64,000 nt of DNA, from positions 13,214,862-13,278,861 of the forward strand of contig NC_057918.1 in assembly GCF_018873765.1 (NCBI RefSeq), given 5' to 3'. Origin of the DNA: Telopea speciosissima. Its lineage: Eukaryota; Streptophyta; Magnoliopsida; Proteales; Proteaceae. This document shows positions 18,860-64,000 of the stretch, in pieces. Made by a program: the position numbers and the translations under genes. The first letter of the stretch is position 1, and every line of letters starts with the position of its first letter. The notes under the pieces are model-generated. The model did not search any database. It saw only the letters and a list, made by a program, of their open reading frames with translations, and was not told where the DNA came from.

Positions 18860-20257
18860 TTACATTTTCCTGCTCGTCTGCATGACTTCCATTAGTGACT
18901 TTTTAGAGCTCCCACCCTTCCCAGCAGCCTTCCTAGCTTCTTCTCTAACGTGAGCAGCTTTCTTCTTCAATTCCTCATTCCCCATGAGTTCCCTGATCTG
19001 CTTCCCAATCTCTTCCCCCTTCAACTCCTCACCACCCCATCCCCAATTCTCCTCCCACGAACCCAACCCACTACTTTCCACCGCGACAGCATTAAGCTTT
19101 TGGTCACCATGCTGTGGCCAAGCCAAGACCGGCACTCCATGCCACGCTGCTTCAGTCACTGAGTTCCACCCACAGTGACTGACAAATCCACCAATTGCTA
19201 CGTGCTCAAGAATCACCCATTGGTCTACCCAATCCTTCACAACCAATCCTCTGTTCTTAACCCTCTTCAGAAAATCATGGCCCACTAACTCTTCAATCTC
19301 CACATTGTCCTCTTAATCCACTTTCTTCCCCTTCAATACCCACAAGAACCTGCAACCACTCTTCTCCAACCCATCACCCAACTCTCTGATTTGATCCTTA
19401 GATAAAGCCGTTCTGCTCCCAAAGCTTACATACACCACTGACCCTGCAGGTTGGCCGTCCAACCATGAAAGCCAAGGTCCTTGCACATACTCATATGGTT
19501 CCAATGGACCGATTGCAAGCACTGGTGGGAGCCCATTTAAGACTTTTCCGTTGTTGAGTGCCTCAAGGGTCTCTGGCTCCAATGCTTGAAAGGTGTTTGT
19601 TAGAATCCCTTTGGCCTTAATGAGCGCTCGACCATTTGAAACTAAAAGTCTTCTAAAAATATGGGTTAAGTCAAAGAGAGGCGGAGGAAGCCAAGATTTT
19701 GGTAAGGTAGCCAAACCAGGGATTTTGAAATTGGGATCCAGATCATCAGAAATCCCTTTGTGGGCAACAGTGGGGAAGTGGGCGAAGAGTGCAAGCATTT
19801 TAGCAGAGGAGGTGAAGAGGATGTAGCTGGGAAGGCAGAGATGAGTGGTTACGGGAACAATGGTGGAGGCTAACATTATGTCAGTGACAAGGGAAGTAAG
19901 AGGAGGAGATAGTGAAGAGAGGAGAGGATGGAGGAGGTGGGCTGAGCGTTGAATGGCTTCGAATTGGAGGAAGAAAGGGTCAGTACTAGTGGAATTGGTA
20001 GTGATGGGTTCATCATGAGAAGAGTAGAGGATATGGAAATCAAGGGGGTGGACATGAGGGTGAGTAGAGAGGAAGTGGGTGATGTGTTGGGATTCAGCAA
20101 GTGAGACTGTTGGATGAGGAGTGATGAGAGTCACTGTACAGCCACGAGCAGCAAGCGTTGCAGCTAGACGAAGGAATGGTGTGAGATGACCCATTCCAGC
20201 GCTTGGAAGGAGAGCTATGTGAGGAGGGTTGTTCTCCATGCTACCACCGCTTGCCAT
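18860..20257 (-). pseudogene. UGT708-like (C-)glycosyltransferase with one in-frame stop
   Basis: A single open frame of 466 codons, start ATG 20257 (MASGGSMENN) to stop at 18860, interrupted only by a TAA at 19313-19315 (codon 315). Otherwise it is a full-length family 1 UDP-glycosyltransferase. The catalytic pair is present: His24 in SAGMGHLTPF and Asp126 in LVTDIMLAS. The C-terminal 44-residue PSPG box runs from W343 (WVDQWVILEH) to HGDQ at 386, with the HCGWNS core. SYILFTSSAKML, LSWLDGQPAGSVVYVSFGSR and the HGDQ end resemble the UGT708 group, which includes flavonoid and dihydrochalcone C-glucosyltransferases. The stop separates the N-terminal acceptor domain from the sugar-donor site, so the translated product should be inactive. 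No frameshift exists. It may be a recent pseudogene, a null allele or a base-call error. Being intronless is normal for this subfamily. Confidence 0.88.
19100..19231 (-). other. PSPG sugar-donor motif of the glycosyltransferase
   Basis: 44 residues from Trp343 to Gln386; contains HCGWNSVTEAAWHGVP and ends HGDQ. It is fully conserved although it lies downstream of the premature stop. Confidence 0.9.
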
Positions 20258-20405
20258 CGCCGGCAGATCGAAACTTTGTGCACCAAGCAGTAGTTGACTT
20301 GTGTGATGGGTATAGAAAAGATCGAGAAACAATAGGTGCTGGAAGAAATAGGCTTAGAGAACTCTTTCCCAAAAATATATTAAACATTCACATAAACTTT
20401 AATCC

Positions 20406-36363: not shown

Positions 36364-37311
36364 TTAGATCAATGTAGAGCACAAAGATGTGGAAGGATCA
36401 AACAGAGCAGGAAGAAGGTACTTTCTCCCATTTGCACCATTGGCATTGTAGCTAGCACCAGTAGTTGAATCCACCAGCAGATCCCCTGCATAGCCAGGGT
36501 AAGCTCCCTTTCCATAAATACCAGGGCAAGCAGAAGCTGCCTCCAATGGTGCCATTGCCGGGCCTTGATAAAAACCATTCCCAAATGGATTGGTAGCAGT
36601 TGCAGCCAAGAGACTAGCCAGATTGATAACCATTCCATCCATGCCCACATCGTTGTTTGGGGCAATCAATGGTGGGTTCTGAGGTCCATAGATGGGCTGG
36701 TAGAAAGGCCAAGCACATTGGCCCGGGCACTGAGTCTCTGAATTGCCAACCCAGATGTAAGCAAACTTTGATTTCTTGCCATGGGAACCATGGCTTCCAC
36801 ATGTGTCCCTGCAGAAGCCCTCGACATTGACATCGGCGGCGGTCAGAACTACATTAATGGCATTTCTATGATCACCTCTTGCTGCAAGTTGCTCAATTTG
36901 GGTGCGGGTAAGCGATTTGCCCATTGAGTAGTTCTCGTCGAGGATCTGATTACCAATCTCGAGAGAAAGGGTAGAGGTGGGCTTCTTGTATTTGGAGCTG
37001 AGATGGTAGTACTTGTCTGTGGTTCTCCACCAGGATAAAACAGAGGGTTGGGATTGGGACTTCAATGAATCTAACCCAGAAAGCGAAGAGACGAAATCGG
37101 AGATAATAGCTTGTTGAGTAGGCTTGAAATTGCCATACCAGATGAGATTAACAGAGATTTTGCCAGAGAGAAGAGGGACATTGTGGTATTGAAAGAGCAT
37201 AGTTTGCTGCTCTTCAACCAAGTCAGTGAGTCTTCTCCCAGCATTGGAGAGACAGAAGATGGAAACCAACAGGAGGGCTTGGAAGAGCAATTTAGAAACC
37301 GAAGAGGCCAT
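36364..37311 (-). CDS. EXORDIUM-like (Phi-1 family) secreted protein
   Basis: Single exon, 315 residues, complete, as usual for this plant family (PF04674). An N-terminal signal peptide ([18 protein letters not shown], cleavage near residue 24) predicts export to the apoplast. Family blocks seen in order: [114 protein letters not shown] and [27 protein letters not shown] proteins are extracellular and promote brassinosteroid-dependent cell expansion, and some members respond to low carbon; no enzyme activity is established. The first ATG of the frame (37311) directly starts the signal peptide. Nothing is broken or missing. Confidence 0.93.
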
Positions 37312-37404
37312 TTCTCAAACAACTTGAGAGCTCAAGTAAGGTGGAAAGAAAGGATGAGAAGGTTTTTGAGTTCTTGTTTGCAGAGGTAGATGAGGTCATA
37401 TGGG

Positions 37405-40915: not shown

Positions 40916-41108
40916 TAAATTTAAGAGTAAATTACTCCCCTTCCCCTCCCCTCTACTATGTCCAAATGACAAACCTCACCCCTGGGTATTGAGTAATAAC
41001 TCTTCCTTCCCTTAAATTTAAAAGATTTTATGAACCATATTCATTCTGTTAAAAATGGATGTTAAGTGATGACATCACCCTAAATATGTATAGTTAAACC
41101 CTAAAATG

Positions 41109-41436
41109 CCCTTGGTTGCTCCACCCTGAGTAACGGTCAGCACCACCACCGACGCCACCACCATTTCCTTAGCCATGGTCACCACCATGGCTGTTTCCAC
41201 CACCGCCGCCCTCACGACGTTCATAATCACTGCCACCTTCACCTCTATAGCCTCCGCCGCCACCGCTGCAATAACCACCTCCACCACCCCTGGTCTGGGC
41301 TTGATTGATAGTAATATTCCTACCATCAAGGTCCTATCCGTTCATCCCTTCAATAGCATCCCTCATCGATTGCTCATCGCGGAAAGTAATGAAGCCAAAC
41401 CCTCTGGATCTCCCAGTCTCACGATTGCTGATGATC
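41109..41436 (-). pseudogene. Glycine-rich RNA-binding protein (GRP7-like) fragment
   Basis: The minus frame reads SNRETGRSRGFGFITFRDEQ (RNP1 motif RGFGFITF), then MRDAIEGMNG, a stop, DLDGRNITINQAQTRGGGGG, then Gly-rich repeats with Tyr and Arg, another stop, and SGWSNQG. This is the second half of an RRM plus the glycine-rich tail of plant GR-RBPs. The N-terminal half with RNP2 is absent, and two in-frame stops are present. Confidence 0.85.
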
Positions 41437-41566
41437 GTTTCCAGTGATCAATTAGAGAGCAGAGAGACTGGTAGTACAGAAAAATTCAGACCTAGCTGAG
41501 ATTTTGGATATTGAAGCGACATCTTGAAGAAAGGATAGTGACAGTAGATGTGGAATGTGATTCTGG

Positions 41567-42205
41567 AGCGAGGATGAGGCCTTTGAGCAGTTTAGGAATT
41601 GGTCTAATTTTGGTGTTCGGTTGTCTGCTCTTAGCTCTTGTTGCAGAGCTCTACTATTTGTTATGGTGGAAAAAGAGGGTCACCGACAGAGAGATTGAAG
41701 ATGATTACAACAGTCCTGCAAGAGAGCTATTTTATACTTTCTGCTGGAAAAAAACAAACCACTGTTGTTGAGTTCCACAACCTTGAACCCTCAGGAACTC
41801 TGCACCTCTGTGAGAATTACAAGAGCCCATGGTCATGAAACAGAGAATTAACTTAACCTTCATTCTGGGTCACATAAGGATTTGTTACTGAAACCCTTTG
41901 AAGATGATGCCATGGATTTGGAACTCTTGATGTTGTAGAATCTCTGTGGACCTCCACGATTCCTCTTCACCAGTAAAGAAGATTTGAAGGAAGATTTGGA
42001 GTTTAATGATGGGAAATCCATAAGTGGAAAAAGCCGAAAAGGGTCAAGTAGGAGCTTGAGTGATATCCTCCCCAGTGTGGAGACCCCATTTTTAACTCCT
42101 ATGCCTTCTCCACCATTTTTCACTCCACCACCGACTCCTATAGACTCGTATAACCACCATGGATTGACTGAAAGCCCTCTCTTTTGGTTCCTTTCTATGG
42201 AAAAT
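41567..42205 (+). pseudogene. Plant-specific single-pass membrane protein fragment
   Basis: The frame starting near 41575 reads LGIGLILVFGCLLLALVAEL then YYLLWWKKRVTDREIEDDYN and ARELFYTFCWKK, a hydrophobic segment followed by a conserved cytosolic block. After a frameshift it continues with TLNPQELCTSVRI, LCGPPRFLFTSKED, GSSRSLSDILPSVETPFLTP and PPFFTPPPTPIDSYNHHGL. I recognise this as a plant family of unknown function; it has no symbol I can give. At least one frameshift and one stop break the copy. Confidence 0.75.
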
Positions 42206-42228
42206 ACTTAATTTTGAATTGATTTACA

Positions 42229-42650
42229 AGGAACACACATACAAGTGACAGCTACATGGGGCACAAGACGACTAAGATGGTGAAGGAGGCAACCAGATAC
42301 ATTAAAAATTGCTTAGGCGCAGGAGCAGATGATGCACTCATATTCTATGGCTCTGGCACCACTGCAACAATCAAACGTTTTCAAGAGGTTATGGAAATCA
42401 CAGTGCCTTCAACCATGAGAGAAAGGATACTCAAGAGCCTAAAGAGAGAAGAGAGATGGCTGGTCTTTGTTGGGCCATATGAGCACCACTCCAACCTCCT
42501 CTGATGGCGTAACAGCTTAGCAGAGGTGATTGAGATCAGTCTTGACGTTGATGGATTGGTAGACATGCGAGCTCTAAGTTGCCAACTTGAGTTTTATAAG
42601 GGTTCCAATCTTTGCCGAGCTTTTTTCACACCTAAACATGGAAAACGGTA
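42229..42650 (+). pseudogene. Class-V aminotransferase / cysteine-desulfurase-like fragment
   Basis: The frame reads NTHTSDSYMGHKTTKMVKEA, YIKNCLGAGADDALIFYGSG, TTATIKRFQEVMEITVPSTM and VFVGPYEHHSNLL, then a stop, then LAEVIEISLDVDGLVDMRAL and QLEFYKGSN. This is the PLP-cofactor-binding N-terminal part of a plant PLP-dependent transferase (the EHHSNLL block is typical). The catalytic lysine region is absent. A single stop follows the EHHSNLL block, and the frame decays after 42650. Confidence 0.85.
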
Positions 42651-42706
42651 CAGCTTTTGGAGATGCATTAGGAAGAAGAAGAAGAAGAGTGGGGCGGCGA
42701 TGTATG

Positions 42707-43267
42707 GTCACTCATAGGGCTACAATAGGGTCGGGTTGGGCTGGGCTTTATAGAACCCTAGCCCAACCCTAAGTCCCTTAGCTGGGCCCAGGCCCGACCT
42801 GACCCTGACTCAGGGCCAAAAAAATCCAACCCTGACCTGCCCTCAGGGTCGGGTCGGGCTGACCCTGATTGGCCCTGATCATGGGGAGGAGGAAAGAAAT
42901 CCATGGACTTAAATGGACCGGGAAGAACAATATCAATTTTACATAAAATAACAATATAATGAAATATATTATAACATTTATTGTCTTCATATATAATATA
43001 CTATATAAAAAAATGTGGGTGAAATTTAAAGTTTATAATGTTTAAATTATATCAATATATATTTTATAGTATAACTTAAATCAGGGTCGGGTCGGGCCGG
43101 GCCAAGCTTAGCTCGAGACCTCAATCCTAACTCGACCCAACCCTAACTCAGGATCAGAAATTTTTAGCCCTAACCCGCCCTTAGGGCCAAATATCTCAGC
43201 CCAGCCCCTGTTCGAGCTCATGGTGGGTTTGGGCCAATAGGGCCAAACTTGCGACCCTAGTCACTCA
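42707..43267. mobile_element. hAT-type MITE with 8-bp TSD (GTCACTCA), nested in the Pack-MULE
   Basis: Element 42715-43259 (545 bp) between perfect octamers GTCACTCA (42707-42714 and 43260-43267). Ends TAGGGCTACAA and, inverted, TAGGGTCGCAA. The two flanks are full of gggtcgggtcgggc and the centre is AT-rich. The 8-bp TSD and TAGGG ends fit the hAT superfamily. Confidence 0.85.
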
Positions 43268-43553
43268 GTGGTGTAGAGTGGTGGGGGCGGGTGGGGTTAT
43301 AGGAGGAAGAAGAAAGAAGTGAGGTTAGAGATGAGGGTATTATTGTCTTTTTAATTGTACTTTTAACACTGTCAGCCAGAATGCCTTTTGCATTCAGGGG
43401 AGAAAAAAGTTATTATTCAATACCCAGGAATGAGATTTGTCATTTAGGCATAATCGAGGGGAGGGAGGAGTAATTTAATCTAAATTTAACTTTGAATTTT
43501 GAAACTTGTCTCAATTCTGAGGATCTATTTCTTTTTGGTATTGTCGGTTATAT

Positions 43554-43737
43554 GGGAGAATAGCTAGGGAAAATCTTCCAGATGGGCCACCGCATCTGGT
43601 ATATCCGTGTCTCTCGCAAGAAGCGTCTGAAAACAACGATTTCTTGGGAGAATAGCTAGGGAAAATCTTCCAGATGGGTCACCGCATCTGGTATATCCGT
43701 GTCTCTCGCAAGAAGCGTCTGAAAACAACACTTTCTT
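43554..43737. repeat. Tandem duplication, 92-bp unit, two copies
   Basis: Copy 1 from 43554 and copy 2 from 43646, both starting gggagaatagctagggaaaa and containing gcatctggtatatccgtgtc. Nearly identical (for example gggccacc versus gggtcacc), so recent. It lies about 65 bases outside the Pack-MULE. Confidence 0.93.
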
Positions 43738-43779
43738 GTTTTTACTATTTTTGATCCGAAGTGAAAAACTGTTACACGA

Positions 43780-45634: not shown

Positions 45635-46637
45635 ATGAATTACTTTGAGCACACTAACATATGGATTATGCATCCTTACTACTTTCGAAACAGAAGGGGG
45701 GGGGGAACCTTTACAAGATGTGAAAAAAAAAAGAGATTATCAAATATTGAAAATACAATCCAAACTGTTATATAGGAACCTTCTTGAACTCCTTTTGTAC
45801 ATGTGAGGATTTGTTTGGAGAATGATACCAATCAAATTTGTAGAGGGTCATTTCCTTCATCATATCTATGAATTCTTCAAAGAATTTCTGCTTTGGGGCA
45901 ATGTCCACCTTGAATCCAGGATCTGGTTGTCTTTGATGTAAAAATCATAAAATGGGATCATCGTAGATGGCAACTCAGTCTTCATCGTATGATGAACCTG
46001 AGAAGATAGCCGTGGCATTACAAACTTTATGTGCTATCATCGTAGATAGCACTTCACTCCATTATATTCTCACACTCCCATTGCACCACTTCATTAGCCT
46101 TTTTCTCTTTTAATTGATATAGACATGTAGTGCTAAATTATAGTAGCCTTAAGAAGTAACATAAAGATCTTAATTTGATGAGCCTTTATTCTTAATCAGT
46201 TAGGCATGGAATCCAATATTAATTCCCATTTGATTTGAAAAAAATATTAAGGTCTTAAAATGTGGGGCTGTATATGATAAAACAATGTATCCCTCGAAAC
46301 ATTCCTTGTGAAGATGATGGAAAAAAATGAGAAATTTATCTGAGAGAATCAAGTTAGCTGTCAACCCATCAGTATGTTTGAACAAAAATCAGATAAATAG
46401 ATTTTGAAATTTTGTACTTTACCATCATGCTCAGAAAAATGCAGTTCCATACCCAAAATCTCACTTTAATTTCCTGTCAATCCCTCTATATCTTTGTTTC
46501 TCCATCTCTCTTCCGCTCTAACTTGCCCCCTTTACTCTCCTTCAAATGCTTTGACAAGAGATCCATATCATATTTTTTTCCCTTCATTATTTTGTTTCTT
46601 TGCAGTCCTGTGTTAGACGGGCCAGACGGCAACAGAG
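45635..46637. other. 5' flank of the phosphomannose isomerase gene
   Basis: AT-rich, no gene recognised; should hold the promoter. The stretch from about 46490 is CT-rich, as 5' UTRs of this kind often are. Confidence 0.4.
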
Positions 46638-49600
46638 ATGAAAGAGGGTGCAGAGAAGAGGAAGAAGAATGAACCACAAAGGTTGAGATGTTCAGTTCAG
46701 AACTACGCTTGGGGGAAAACTGGAGAAGAATCAAAGGCTGCAAGGTTGTTCTCACTGAATTCTGGTCTGGATATCCAACAGGATGAACCATATGCAGAAT
46801 TTTGGATGGGAACTCATGAGTCTGGGCCATCATTTGTCATTAACGACAGCAAAGTCAGAGATTCTGACTCAGAGTTCATTAGTCTAAAGTCATGGATTTT
46901 GGAAAACCCCAGTGTCCTCGGCAATAAGATTGTGAAGAAATGGGGCACAGACCTCCCTTTCTTATTCAAGGTATTGGTTTTCAAAATTTTGAATATTTTT
47001 CAATTTTTAGTTTTCATATTTTATTTTAAGGATTATGTTGTTCTTGTTATGTACCACTTTTTCTTGAAATTTCCAGAATTTTTTTTAAAACAACTAATAT
47101 TTCTTCAATTGTACTTTTAAATTCTCTGGTGCTATAGGTACTTTCAGTAGCAAAAGCACTGTCTATACAGGCTCATCCAGACAATAAACTAGCAAGGTTT
47201 TTGCATAAACTGCAACCAACTCTTTACAAAGACATTAATCACAAACCAGAATTGGCTTTGGCACTAACAGAATTTGAGGCCTTGTGTGGGTTTGTCAGCC
47301 TTGAGGTAATAGACCTGTCTTCCTTTTGGAGAAGGTTCATTTCTTCTTCTTCTTTTCCCTCTAAATTCTGCACTCTTATAGTTGATTTCTGTAAAATAAC
47401 ACTGTGCTTTGGATCTTGAATGGAGCAAAAATAAAATTTAGTCTAGTAAATAATTGAATAGCTGCATTTCTTTCTGCTGCTTTTTTCTTGGAGTGGGTAG
47501 GGAGTGGGGTTCTTAGTTTCTCTTCAAAGAGTTCCATGAAATGTTAACCAGCCTAAAAGATCTAATGAAGTTTCATAACCATCTGTTATTATTTTTTGTC
47601 TTTGTTAATAATAATAATAAGATCCCTTGGTGTATGCTTTTTCCAAATGATATTGTTTTGGTGGATGAAGCAAATGCTGGGATAAATGCAAAATTGGATT
47701 TATGGAGATTAACCTTGGAATCAAAAGGTTTTAAGATATGTAGAACAAAAAACAGAGTATATGATGTGTAACTTCAATAACAATAGGACTGAGAGTGGGG
47801 TGGTAAAAATGATACTTAGGTTCAATCATGGATGAGAAATTGAGGATGATATTATACAAAGAATTAAAATAGGATGGATGAAATCATGAAATGGACATAT
47901 CCCTTTAAAACTCGAAAGGAAATTTTATAGAACAGTTATATGACCAACAATGACATATGGAGCTGAATATTAGGCAGTAAAGAAAACACATTTAAACAAA
48001 CTTCATGTGGCTGAAATGAGGATGTTGCGGTGGATGAGTGGTAAAAAGATAAAATAAAGAATGAACAACTTAAAGCAAACCTAGGAGTTGCCCCTATTCA
48101 TGATATGTTGCGAGAAACTCATCTGAGCTGGCATGGACATGTGAAGCGGAGGCCTTTGAGTGCTCTAGTTCGGAGAAGTGATTTGTTTCAAATCTATTAG
48201 AGTTTCATGGTTGGAATTTGTGTCCTTAGATAGGGTTTGATAAGTAATGCATAGAGTAAAAAGAGTTCTTCTATAGGTTGAGTGGTTCCAAAGTTACAGG
48301 CAGTCATAATTATTTTTTATGTAGGCGGGGCAGTCTTGTAATTATCTGGATAAGTCACACTGAATTTTCCTTTTCTTTGGTTCTTTTGTAATTTGTGAAG
48401 TTATTGGTTTGATTAGTTTGAACAGAAGCTGTAGGGTAGTTTTCTCTATGATTTCACTTCTATTATGATAAAATTAGTGGTTAGTTAGATTTAACAAGTC
48501 CTAGTTTTTTCTGGAATGGGGTTGAGTTGAGATCTGTATATAGTTGGACGCCGTTACCATCCCACATTTTGAGCAATGAATGAAGTTACTTTTTCCAAAG
48601 ACTTGAGCTGTTGCTGATTTATGGATTCACAGGCTCTTTGAAGTTGGATTGTTCTCCTCAACCCTAGGTGGATGCCTAGGTACTTATTTTCTTCTCTTCT
48701 ATTACTGTCTAGATGTTTAAAATTTCTGGATACATTTATATCGTACATCATCAGTCCATTTTTTTCACCATTATTACCATCTGTACACCTCCATAACATA
48801 TCCATTTAACTCTAAAATACCATATATATCCCCACGTAAGCCCTAGTTGTATGGGACTGTTTTACAAGTACTTATTTTATGTTACCCAGTTACAGAACAT
48901 ATTCCTGTCCCCATCAATGCCCTATTTCTTCAATATCCATACCCATCACTTCCATTGCTCTTAATTCTTTAAAACTGTACCCTTAGTTTTCCCTAACTCA
49001 GTGATGCAGATAAGTCACATAATGGGCTTATTTTATTGGAAATAAGCCTGGGTGGGTTTATATATACATTGGGCCTTTGATTCCATGTGTTTTATTCGTA
49101 AAATGTGGGTACAAGGGAGGCATACGGGTTAGGCTTAGTGATAGCTTATTTTCATTCCTAGGTTAATTAATGTAGTGGGTTTAGTTTCCTAGGTAGTATT
49201 AATTTGTCCTTTAGTTTTCCTTGTGTCTTTTTGTATTCCTAGGCAGTATTAAATATTTTCCATTATTCAATCTTGTTTTGTAGTTCCTAAGTCTTGGGAA
49301 CAATTTTTTATTTCTTGGGGTTAGTTTCTAGGTGTTGGGAATTCCATTTAGTCTTGGAATTCCAACAGTCTTGTTATTCATTTTGATGTAATCCAGGAGA
49401 CTATTAAGCCTCTTTTTTCTCTATATAATAGAATGGTGGGATGCTATTTCAACACATCCAGAAATTTTTTTAAAAAAAATATCCTCTTGTGAGAATTTTT
49501 GCTTGCGAGACTCAAGTGGCATCAAGGTGGGACTCCTCCGATGGTGAACTCAGTGGGACTCCGACGGTTGGGCAACTAGTGGGACTCTAGGCTTCCAAAG

Positions 49601-61850: not shown

Positions 61851-62735
61851 ACAAACCCACAAACCCCTTCTCCTCTTCTTCTTCTTCTTCCAGCTGCTAT
61901 CCACCGGCCCTTGCTGCAACCCAATCCAACCTCACCTGCCCCTAACCCCTGCTTCCCACCACCCCACCCACCCCCTGTTGAGATCTCAGCCCCGGTGTGA
62001 CCCCAAACTGCCCCACCCCCCATTGGTGCCACCTCCTAATGGGGAAGGAAAATCTAAAAGGCAGAAGGCATTGGCGTTTTACCCACTTTGGTATTGAAAA
62101 TCTAAAGCCTAAGAAGCAATTTTGAATTTAATTTGATATTAATTTAAGTCTGATGGTTACCTTCCTCCGCCATTAGTGGGCATTGGCTTTTTACCCACTT
62201 TGGCTGAAGCCCCCCTCTCTAATCTCTGTATATAAGTGGGCATCTGCTCTTTCACCTACTCACTAGTCACAGTTTTATCTGCAGTTCTGCACTTCAAAAT
62301 TTGAGCACAGCAACTCTTGATTCCGCCTCAGGAGAGGGACAGAAGGCACCACCCCTTTGGTCTATGCTTGCCGTGAATGAGAAGGAGAAGAAGAAGAGAA
62401 GGGAAGAGAGACGCAACGATGGTAGAGCTTGTGCAAGGATGATGACGATGGTGATGAACAGAGGAAGCTTTACACCAACAGAACCCGAATCGTGAAAGCA
62501 AAAATGCCAGTGAGAATAAAGAACAAAATATTCATGTGAATGCCAACAAAGGCAATTGCACCAAAAAAAATAAATAAAAATCAACATGGTGTCGTAGAAC
62601 AACAGAGAATCTCGCAGAATTAGCCCTAACGAATCCCATCACCGAAAACCCAGAAGAGGAAGAAGAAGAAGAAACAAAACGGAAAGGACCCAATTCAAAC
62701 TGTCCTCTCCTTTTTTGTTCACATTTTTAACATAC
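61851..62735. other. Region where intron 1 of the kinase should begin
   Basis: CT- and C-rich, then AT-rich DNA with a small ttttacccactttgg duplication (62078 and 62191). No kinase exon found on the minus strand here. Confidence 0.5.
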
Positions 62736-63143
62736 CTTATTCTTCTCTATTCTCTTGACGACGACCTGTTCCCCGGTGGATTTATTGGTGGCAACAAACG
62801 TATAACCAAACTGCCCGTGACCCAACAATTTCCCGATCGAATACTTATTATCGAAATCCTTGGCGTACCCAAAATCCGTCCGCTTTCCATATGGAGTAAC
62901 CCCGCTGGGCCACCTCGAATGCCCTTTATCCTTCTGTTGCTGCTGTGATCGATTTTTATGGCTCTCATATGGCTTCTGTGGTGGATGATGCGATGTATCC
63001 TTCTGGGTCGCCGCTGTTGAACAGGTTTTGGAGCTCTCTTTCTGGTTCTTTTTGTTGTTTTTATTGCTGCTGTTGCTGTTGTTGTTAGAAGGGGCGTTGC
63101 TGTTTGCGTCACTGACTTTGGTAGTTGAAAGACAGATTCCCAT
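62736..63143 (-). CDS. Calcium-dependent protein kinase (group IV, CPK16/18/28-like), first exon only
   Basis: 136 codons from ATG 63143 to a consensus donor AAG/gtatgt at 62735. MGIC at the start gives the N-myristoylation Gly2 and palmitoylation Cys4 of membrane-bound CDPKs. A variable Asn/Ser/Lys/Gln-rich region (11-80) follows, then GKRTDFGYAKDF, the glycine loop LLGHGQFGYTFVA (Gly108-Gly113) and the invariant ATP-binding lysine Lys130 in VVVKRIEKNK. TPYGKRTDFGY is the signature of the group IV CDPKs. No later exons (HRD, DFG, EF hands) were found anywhere on the minus strand to the left before the PMI gene, so this is a gene with an exceptional intron, a truncated copy or a captured exon. 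The exon itself has no damage. Confidence 0.8.
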
Positions 63144-64000
63144 GATTTTGCAGAACAGCTTCTCGTGTTTGCAGATGGGAGAACCATCAAATTGATTTAT
63201 AAAGACTGGTGTTAATCATCAAAACCATTAAAGAAAGCTTAAAGCAAATGGAAGGAAGAAGACAAGAAAGAGAGTTGGTCAAAAGATGAGACTTTTTTGA
63301 AGCGACGAGGTAAGAGAATGGGGGGTGCTGCTTGCTGGAACTCCCCCTCTTTTTTGAACCCATGTTCTTAGTTTCTTCCGCCTTCAGACCAACGAAGACG
63401 ATGAAGAGAGGGGTAATTTGGGGTTTTATTCTTAAGGGTATTATGAGAAATTCATCCTTTTATAAAAGATTTATTTTTCAGCGTAGCCGTCATATTCTTG
63501 ACCGTACAGGTAAGTTAGTTAAAGATCAGATCTGTCTAAGTTGTTTAAAAGGAGGTGAACTGGCAAACTAAGAAGGTGATAAATTTGTAGAAATTGGGTA
63601 GCTAGCTAGCTAGGCAATTCTCAAATTAAATCATCCCCACCAAAGACTTGCCATCGACACCATAACAAGACCCGATCGAGTGCATGAAATCTTTACTCAT
63701 TGTGTATGTATTTCACGAAGGGAGGGGGGGGCTCTTTGCACTGTTTATGGTCAGAGGAACTTTTCACTGGAAGGTAATGTATGTATCTTTCTGATTTTCT
63801 TATTTGGGATCTTTAGTTTTAGGCCAATCTAATAGCGTTTTTGTTGGTAGGTTCTTAAATGTGCTTTTGGTTAATAAAGCAAAGGATATTGAAGAGATCA
63901 AAGGGGATTAGGATCGTTTCCAGGGAGGCGTGCGCCCAGGGTGCTGCTAGGGGCATCCAATAGATGCACGCCTAGGGATGTGTTCGACACAGTCCAGCAG
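63144..64000. other. 5' flank of the kinase exon and right edge
   Basis: A minus-strand TTTATAAATC lies near 63195-63204, about 55 bases before the ATG, a possible TATA box. 63900-64000 resembles the dispersed repeat at 13260-13430 (shared gggcatccaa and an acacag-cc-aca block). No further gene. Confidence 0.45.

Follow-up and report, generated by a model that had tools for sequence, protein, structure and literature searches.

The Pack-MULEs of rice, maize and Arabidopsis are non-autonomous Mutator-like elements (MULEs) with 9-bp target site duplications (TSDs), long terminal inverted repeats (TIRs) and fragments of host genes. For this class, TSDs of 9-11 bp and TIRs of typically 100-500 bp have been described (PMC3310237), and there are MULE-derived genes composed of several parental sequences as well as Pack-MULEs expressed as chimeric transcripts (PMC4858842, PMC13317346). 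How Pack elements acquire several unlinked gene pieces has been called perplexing (PMC8277862). Here, a Pack-MULE from Telopea speciosissima is analyzed that lies in a window of 64,000 nt (C3:13214862-13278861; genome searched: 822.9 Mb, 1287 contigs) and unites pieces of a gene for a glycine-rich RNA-binding protein (GR-RBP), a membrane-protein gene and a class V aminotransferase gene. It very probably belongs to a non-autonomous family that was built stepwise, in which an RNA-derived GR-RBP fragment would be the founder, the other pieces would be later captures, and the chimera would have been mobilised in trans with its cargo evolving neutrally.

The element shares the non-autonomous make-up, the 9-bp TSD, the long TIRs and the host gene fragments with the Pack-MULEs of rice, maize and Arabidopsis, but differs from them by a spliced fragment beside an intron-bearing one and by a remnant that shows the order of capture. 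Ssk-FB4, a multicopy Pack-TIR of Drosophila (PMC8277862), likewise has microhomology at its joins and has spread its captured sequence by transposing, whereas the T. speciosissima element is from a plant, has three donors and shows no visible coding function. Maize Bs1 (PMC13317346) likewise combines fragments from three host genes in a mobile element; Bs1, however, is a long terminal repeat (LTR) retroelement in which RNA-derived cargo is expected, and the carrier studied here is a DNA transposon. In the splicing of AtGRP7 and AtGRP8 (PMC3526319), a cryptic 5' splice site inside the intron likewise gives an isoform that is sensitive to nonsense-mediated decay (NMD), but the T. speciosissima isoform is seen only as a fossil join in transposons.

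Identity of the element and donors of its cargo

The element spans window positions 40925-43480, with inverted ends and a perfect 9-bp TSD, TAAATTTAA, on either side. The TIRs start with GAGTAAATTACTCC and GATTAAATTACTCC at the two element ends. Their inner arms (40944-41024/43385-43465) are 80% and their outer arms (40918-40938/43467-43487) 86% complementary, and the inversion between the ends covers ~100 bp. The TIR alignment scored 93, and none of 1000 alignments with one arm shuffled base by base scored above 29. When 40 of 681 candidate genome places related to the 5' end were scored, the 39 besides the element itself were 81-85% identical, sister copies among them. No transposase family was found among the Pfam matches of the nine frames scanned in 41169-42772. 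With its long TIRs, the 9-bp TSDs of its copies (see below) and host gene fragments that have related genes in the same genome, the element belongs to the known class of Pack-MULEs, and the RNA-derived founder fragment is its unusual feature.

A first-pass annotation, made from the letters of the window alone, had proposed a Pack-MULE with fragments of three unrelated genes. The TSD and the TIRs it had named could be confirmed, DNA similarity to loci of the same genome bears out the three gene pieces, and sister copies with both TSDs and TIRs support the reading as a whole. The best matches of the pieces lie on C5, C1 and C7, and not in one contiguous ancestral locus; these unlinked matches, together with the joins shared among copies, rule out ancestral adjacency as well as a separate insertion of each piece.

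The related genes match RRM_1 and Aminotran_5 above the cut-off. Of the fragments' own frames, those of the GR-RBP and membrane pieces matched no Pfam family, and that of the aminotransferase piece had only sub-threshold matches, with Smr (E=0.0091) before Aminotran_5 (E=0.015). The donor-type gene of the membrane-protein piece, C1:26.68M, is 93% identical over 688 aligned positions, and its 320-aa frame matches no Pfam family at E 0.01. For the aminotransferase piece, the closest loci are two at C7:1.05M, C7a and C7b, and the C7b exon matches Aminotran_5 above the cut-off. The 29-base aminotransferase intron remnant is present, with point changes, in 12/12 loci of the chimera. Because this intron remnant was kept, the aminotransferase piece came from DNA, unlike the GR-RBP piece.

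The spliced GR-RBP fragment and the order of capture

The best gene for the GR-RBP piece is C5:8.22M (L073), which is 91-94% identical over the RNA recognition motif (RRM) part and the intron half (5 copies compared), whereas the C4:13.85M GR-RBP gene is 80-84% identical to the piece. The C5 and C4 genes are 86% alike, and the predicted C5 protein matches RRM_1 with E=8.5e-23. The C5 gene has a single 296-bp intron with a second donor, ACG/GTATGT, 167 bases into it; this cryptic donor is conserved in both GR-RBP genes compared. In the element, the first part of the intron is fused directly to exon 2, and exactly 129 bp, GTATGT...GTGCAG, are missing, ending on the gene's own acceptor. Because it lacks exactly the segment between cryptic donor and normal acceptor, the GR-RBP founder fragment is, as judged from sequence comparison, RNA-derived, its spliced state being shown by the join. 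Removal of an intron at its splice sites, a feature of processed pseudogenes, was thus found for the intron part behind the cryptic donor. The cryptic-donor isoform of the C5 gene would stop after 69 codons and, by analogy, the missing segment corresponds to the NMD-type isoform described for AtGRP7/8. Intervals of at least 60 bp in the span are of the form GT..AG in 334/70125 cases (~0.5%).

The splice join is present in 11/11 chimera copies that hold the region, and also in L074, L077, L075 and L078. A search spanning the join scored 40 of 41 candidates. Among the matches listed, the join was spanned in ten chimera copies (C2:65.15M not listed), in L074 and L077, at four places at 82-84%, L075 and L078 among them, and by weaker, gapped matches (72-75%) at five places. 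Also among these matches, the two halves were 112-145 bp apart, with the intron part retained, at six places: the C5 and C4 genes, a decayed copy (L080) and three more. L074 carries the 3' end of the MULE family and L077 the 5' end (75% alike), reaching only 7 bases past the join. L075 (C5:67419300-67420700) and L078 (C9:60109900-60110900), 93% alike over 742 bp, are a different repeat that shares the join; its left end, TAGGGGTGTCAACCG, we take to be hAT-like. L076 (C6:13241500-13243400) is a GR-RBP copy without the whole intron, that is of the normal splice form, with ~690 bp extra in the glycine-rich part, and its lack of an intron indicates that GR-RBP mRNA retrocopies exist in this genome. 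We infer that the route of the founder fragment led most simply via a processed pseudogene. In the sister copies read, no A/T tract was found beside the end of the GR-RBP 3' untranslated region, where MULE sequence truncates the fragment.

A 20-base stretch that agrees with GR-RBP exon 1 in every base separates the membrane piece from the aminotransferase piece, in GR-RBP orientation and order (E=4e-5 for that sequence pair). It occurs, with point changes, in 12/12 chimera loci, and in today's C5 gene the distance from this remnant to the end of the intron piece is 142 bp. The first-pass annotation had placed the two plus-strand pieces within about 25 bases of each other; the GR-RBP exon 1 remnant (17-20 bases) sits between them. 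Because the remnant lies between the other two pieces, the GR-RBP fragment must once have been longer and was interrupted by the membrane piece, and as far as the arrangement of the letters can tell, the GR-RBP piece is shown to have been captured first. At two joins bases are shared, namely 4-5 A's between the GR-RBP end and the membrane piece (41480-41484) and ATT between the membrane piece and the exon 1 remnant. Such 3-5 shared bases would fit template switching as the mechanism, and microhomology at breakpoints is reported for Pack-TIRs (PMC8277862).

In L074 (C10:63411900-63413300) and L083 (C5:68620000-68620950), both with the 3' end of this MULE family, the GR-RBP intron sequence runs on to L073 2057-2058 (2015 in the chimera), and the stretch read gave no match to the membrane or aminotransferase genes. 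Because of this longer reach and the lack of the other pieces there, these loci are not derived from the chimera, and may represent either another lineage descended from that founder or an independent capture. Beside their GR-RBP sequence lies a piece that by eye reads like a Dof transcription factor gene.

The chimera family, its cargo and its surroundings

When the genome was searched at the DNA level with the three gene pieces, the chimera was recovered at 12 loci including the window, one on C3, six on C10, two on C6, one on C2 and two on C9. Both ends are kept in 11 of them; C9:15.09M is truncated. Perfect 9-bp TSDs flank 9/11 end-bearing copies, all nine different, and since they are different the chimera itself must have transposed. 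The C10:27.21M copy, which has lost the final bases of its 3' TIR, is counted among these nine. In the C10:61.85M copy the TSD agrees in 8/9 bases, and the C10:60.36M copy lies in a T-rich site with an unclear duplication of 6/9 bases. No similarity at E 1e-3 was found between the 22 flanks of ~500 bp on both sides of the 11 copies.

Pairwise identity of the copies ranges from 90.3% (window copy and C6:65.26M) to 99.5% (C6:58.90M and C10:12.27M), and in a tree rooted at midpoint only, the window copy sits on the longest branch (0.058). The GTCACTCA stretch is kept in the window copy and also in a related MULE, L084, with GTCACTCC in L074; it is missing from nine sisters, a G-run takes its place in C2:65.15M, and the region is absent from C9:15.09M. 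We infer that the window copy branched off early and has decayed, and that further transposition of the family followed later. Private C>T or G>A changes of the window copy affect 13/98 CG-site bases and 36/840 other C and G bases (direction not polarised), a pattern suggestive of methylated, silent DNA; in the ten other copies, private changes total 2-43, with 0-7 of them at CG sites.

Some related loci were set aside or concern single copies. L082 (C3:65894100-65895200), a 697-bp derivative with its own 9-bp TSD ATAAAAATA (read by eye), was dropped as a precursor: its 93-97% identity to one sister copy speaks rather for an origin by internal deletion. L081 (C1:30.45M; C1:30451800-30453400) was likewise dropped as an aminotransferase-only precursor and reads as a 5'-truncated, deletion-riddled copy; its many changes are very short deletions and not substitutions, a pattern of decay or an assembly fault. 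The C10:51.3M copy (parts in L064 and L065) is split by an insertion of ~11 kb at C10:51305394-51316328 with TG...CA ends and a GATAT duplication, which resembles an LTR retrotransposon.

In no copy does the ATG frame of the membrane piece exceed 77 codons (window copy: 65), and a stop falls within the first 50 codons of the GR-RBP frame in 11/11 copies tested. Relative to the C1 gene, changes in the membrane piece are spread evenly over the codon positions, with 11/9/12 for the window copy and 10-20 at each position for the other ten end-bearing copies, compared with 17/16/52 between the C1 gene and its C2 paralogue. The GR-RBP piece departs from the C5 gene by few changes, which favour positions 1 and 3 (4/0/6, window copy). 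The aminotransferase piece of the window copy differs from C7b by 16/12/32, a third-position excess, and C7a and C7b show the same pattern (19/12/36). Among the copies, variable columns by codon position are 23/31/24 for the membrane, 16/16/11 for the aminotransferase and 11/6/9 for the GR-RBP piece, with no third-position excess in any of the three. Because C7a and C7b differ alike and the copies do not, the aminotransferase excess is attributed to the divergence of C7b from the true donor. A protein-coding chimera is not supported by the frames and the among-copy codon positions; most likely the cargo evolves neutrally, and it is unlikely to give a chimeric protein. Stop-to-stop frames across the window element reach 115 aa, on the minus strand. 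Small-RNA effects of the copies on the parent genes are possible, and the co-transcription and antisense RNA suggested in the first-pass annotation would belong to the weaker, speculative side of its reading.

The features of the window copy are collected in Table 1.

Table 1. Features of the Pack-MULE in the window (positions in the 64,000-nt window)
Feature	Position	Strand	Basis or remark
Left 9-bp TSD TAAATTTAA	40916..40924		Identical to 43481-43489
MULE 5' terminal region	40925..41113	+	Inverted relative to 3' end over 40925-41024; family similarity to 41113
GR-RBP fragment: glycine-rich region and RRM half (exon 2)	41125..41436	-	Best gene C5:8.22M (L073); left edge approximate
GR-RBP intron, first half	41437..41484	-	Spliced-type join to exon 2 at 41436/41437, cryptic intronic donor; 129 bp GTATGT...GTGCAG absent
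Membrane-protein gene fragment: 5' leader and N-terminal part of frame, frameshifted	41485..42165	+	93% to C1:26684523-26685206
GR-RBP exon 1 remnant, 20 bases	42163..42182	-	20/20 identical to L073 2158-2177 (sister copy); letters of window copy the same
Aminotransferase exon end (...CCTTTCTATGG)	42183..42200	+	Similarity to donor-type gene
Aminotransferase intron remnant, 29 bases	42201..42229	+	Comparison with aminotransferase gene and copies
Aminotransferase class V exon fragment	42230..42608	+	84% to two C7:1.05M loci; related exon matches PF00266; one in-frame stop in window copy
Filler (~45 bases) and MULE 3' subterminal region	42609..42706	+	Copy comparison
Nested-element 8-bp target duplication GTCACTCA, left	42707..42714		Identical to right duplication
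Nested non-autonomous hAT-like element (TAGGGCTACAA...TTGCGACCCTA)	42715..43259	+	Relatives with same ends; missing from sister copies holding the site
Nested-element 8-bp target duplication GTCACTCA, right	43260..43267		Identical to left duplication
MULE 3' subterminal region and 3' TIR	43268..43480	+	TIR and copy comparison
Right 9-bp TSD TAAATTTAA	43481..43489		Identical to 40916-40924

Elements of the hAT type have 8-bp TSDs and short TIRs beginning with (C/T)AGGG, and both features were found in the nested element, which is 545 bp long. Of 4321 candidate relatives 40 were scored, and 40/43 matching stretches ran from query base 1-2 to 538-545; among the matches listed, the relatives besides the element itself were 89-91% alike. 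Because the sister copies that hold its site lack it, the nested element was inserted after the chimera had formed. The first-pass annotation had overlooked this element, as well as the spliced state of the GR-RBP piece and the exon 1 remnant. A source search for the filler near 42612-42655 gave short matches only.

Just beyond the right end of the Pack-MULE, a 92-bp unit occurs twice in tandem (43553-43738, 96% matches). Elsewhere in the window, long open frames were noted that we take to be a glycosyltransferase (18860-20353), an EXORDIUM-like protein (36364-37314), a mannose-6-phosphate isomerase (46617-47120) and a calcium-dependent kinase (62727-63215).

Proposed history and alternative explanations

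The following history is proposed. A MULE would first have gained a GR-RBP cDNA fragment; a processed pseudogene of the cryptic-donor (NMD-type) isoform would most likely have been the template copied in gap repair. In a second repair event with template switching, the stretch that measures 142 bp in today's gene would have been replaced by part of the membrane gene, and the aminotransferase piece, carrying intron sequence, would have been added beside the exon 1 remnant. The finished chimera may then have been mobilised in trans by a MULE transposase, leaving the 11 end-bearing copies with nine perfect TSDs seen today, while the window copy, as an early branch, would have decayed and later been struck by the hAT-like element.

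Several observations weigh against this stepwise history. An autonomous partner was not found: no pair of MULE domain and TIR place lies within 20 kb (150 of 827 candidate domains and 40 of 681 places), and the listed domain nearest to any listed place is 21 kb away. L074 and L077 each showed one MULE end only in the stretch read. A stand-alone processed pseudogene of the cryptic-donor isoform was not recognised among the listed matches, the surroundings of part of which were read, and in T. speciosissima this isoform is known here only as the fossil join. Regarding the donors, C6:7.55M, a locus 98% like the C1 membrane gene in the matched part, matches part of the membrane piece equally well (93%), and the aminotransferase piece is only 82-84% alike to C7a and C7b (2 copies compared). 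Because of this low identity and the third-position differences from C7b, its immediate donor was probably another functional paralogue. Finally, the aminotransferase frame is open over 123 tested codons in 5/12 copies, although it is broken in seven, including the window copy.

The spliced join could also have arisen if GR-RBP was captured as ordinary genomic DNA and a chance deletion later removed the 129 bp. This is very improbable: internal deletions do happen in this MULE family, for example in L082, but here one end coincides with a donor-like site that two genes conserve and the other with a real acceptor, a GT..AG form taken by ~0.5% of intervals, and the same join recurs in the different repeat of L075 and L078. 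More has to be considered for a direct RNA template, in which GR-RBP mRNA or its cDNA served MULE repair with no processed pseudogene in between. It would agree with the missing stand-alone pseudogene (40 of 41 candidates, surroundings partly read) and with the occurrence of one join in at least two repeat types, but L076 shows that GR-RBP mRNA retrocopies occur, and the source pseudogene may have decayed, so that a direct template is considered rather unlikely. Distinctly unlikely, too, is the broader proposal that plant DNA transposons take up reverse-transcribed mRNA directly, by which an NMD-bound GR-RBP isoform would have templated a MULE and, separately, a hAT-like repeat, and the RNA-derived piece would have become a landing pad for later captures.

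Regarding the fate of the chimera, perfect 24-mers common to the window copy and a parent gene number 127 for the membrane gene and 32 for the GR-RBP gene, and together with the 123-codon aminotransferase frame open in some copies this could point to a functional new gene or a trans-acting silencer of the parents. The lack of a third-position excess among copies in any piece, the short membrane and stopped GR-RBP frames and the CG-site changes, as expected for methylated DNA, argue against it and make such a function quite improbable. That the copies are segmental duplications of one locus, for which the six of 12 copies on C10 could be cited, has a practically negligible probability, given the different 9-bp TSDs of nine end-bearing copies and the 22 flanks without a match at E 1e-3. 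The stepwise history from an RNA-derived founder is retained as the preferred explanation.

A mark of spliced mRNA in an element of the Pack-MULE type is unexpected. A Pack-MULE carrying a spliced isoform was not met in the literature titles and abstract openings listed, a search with subscription journals mostly outside it, and it is not claimed to be unreported. The family keeps a readable record of its assembly, comprising an RNA-derived founder, a later insertion that split it, relatives that bear the founder without the chimera, and copies of differing ages. The order of the captures, and whether each was of DNA or RNA, could be tested by comparing related species.

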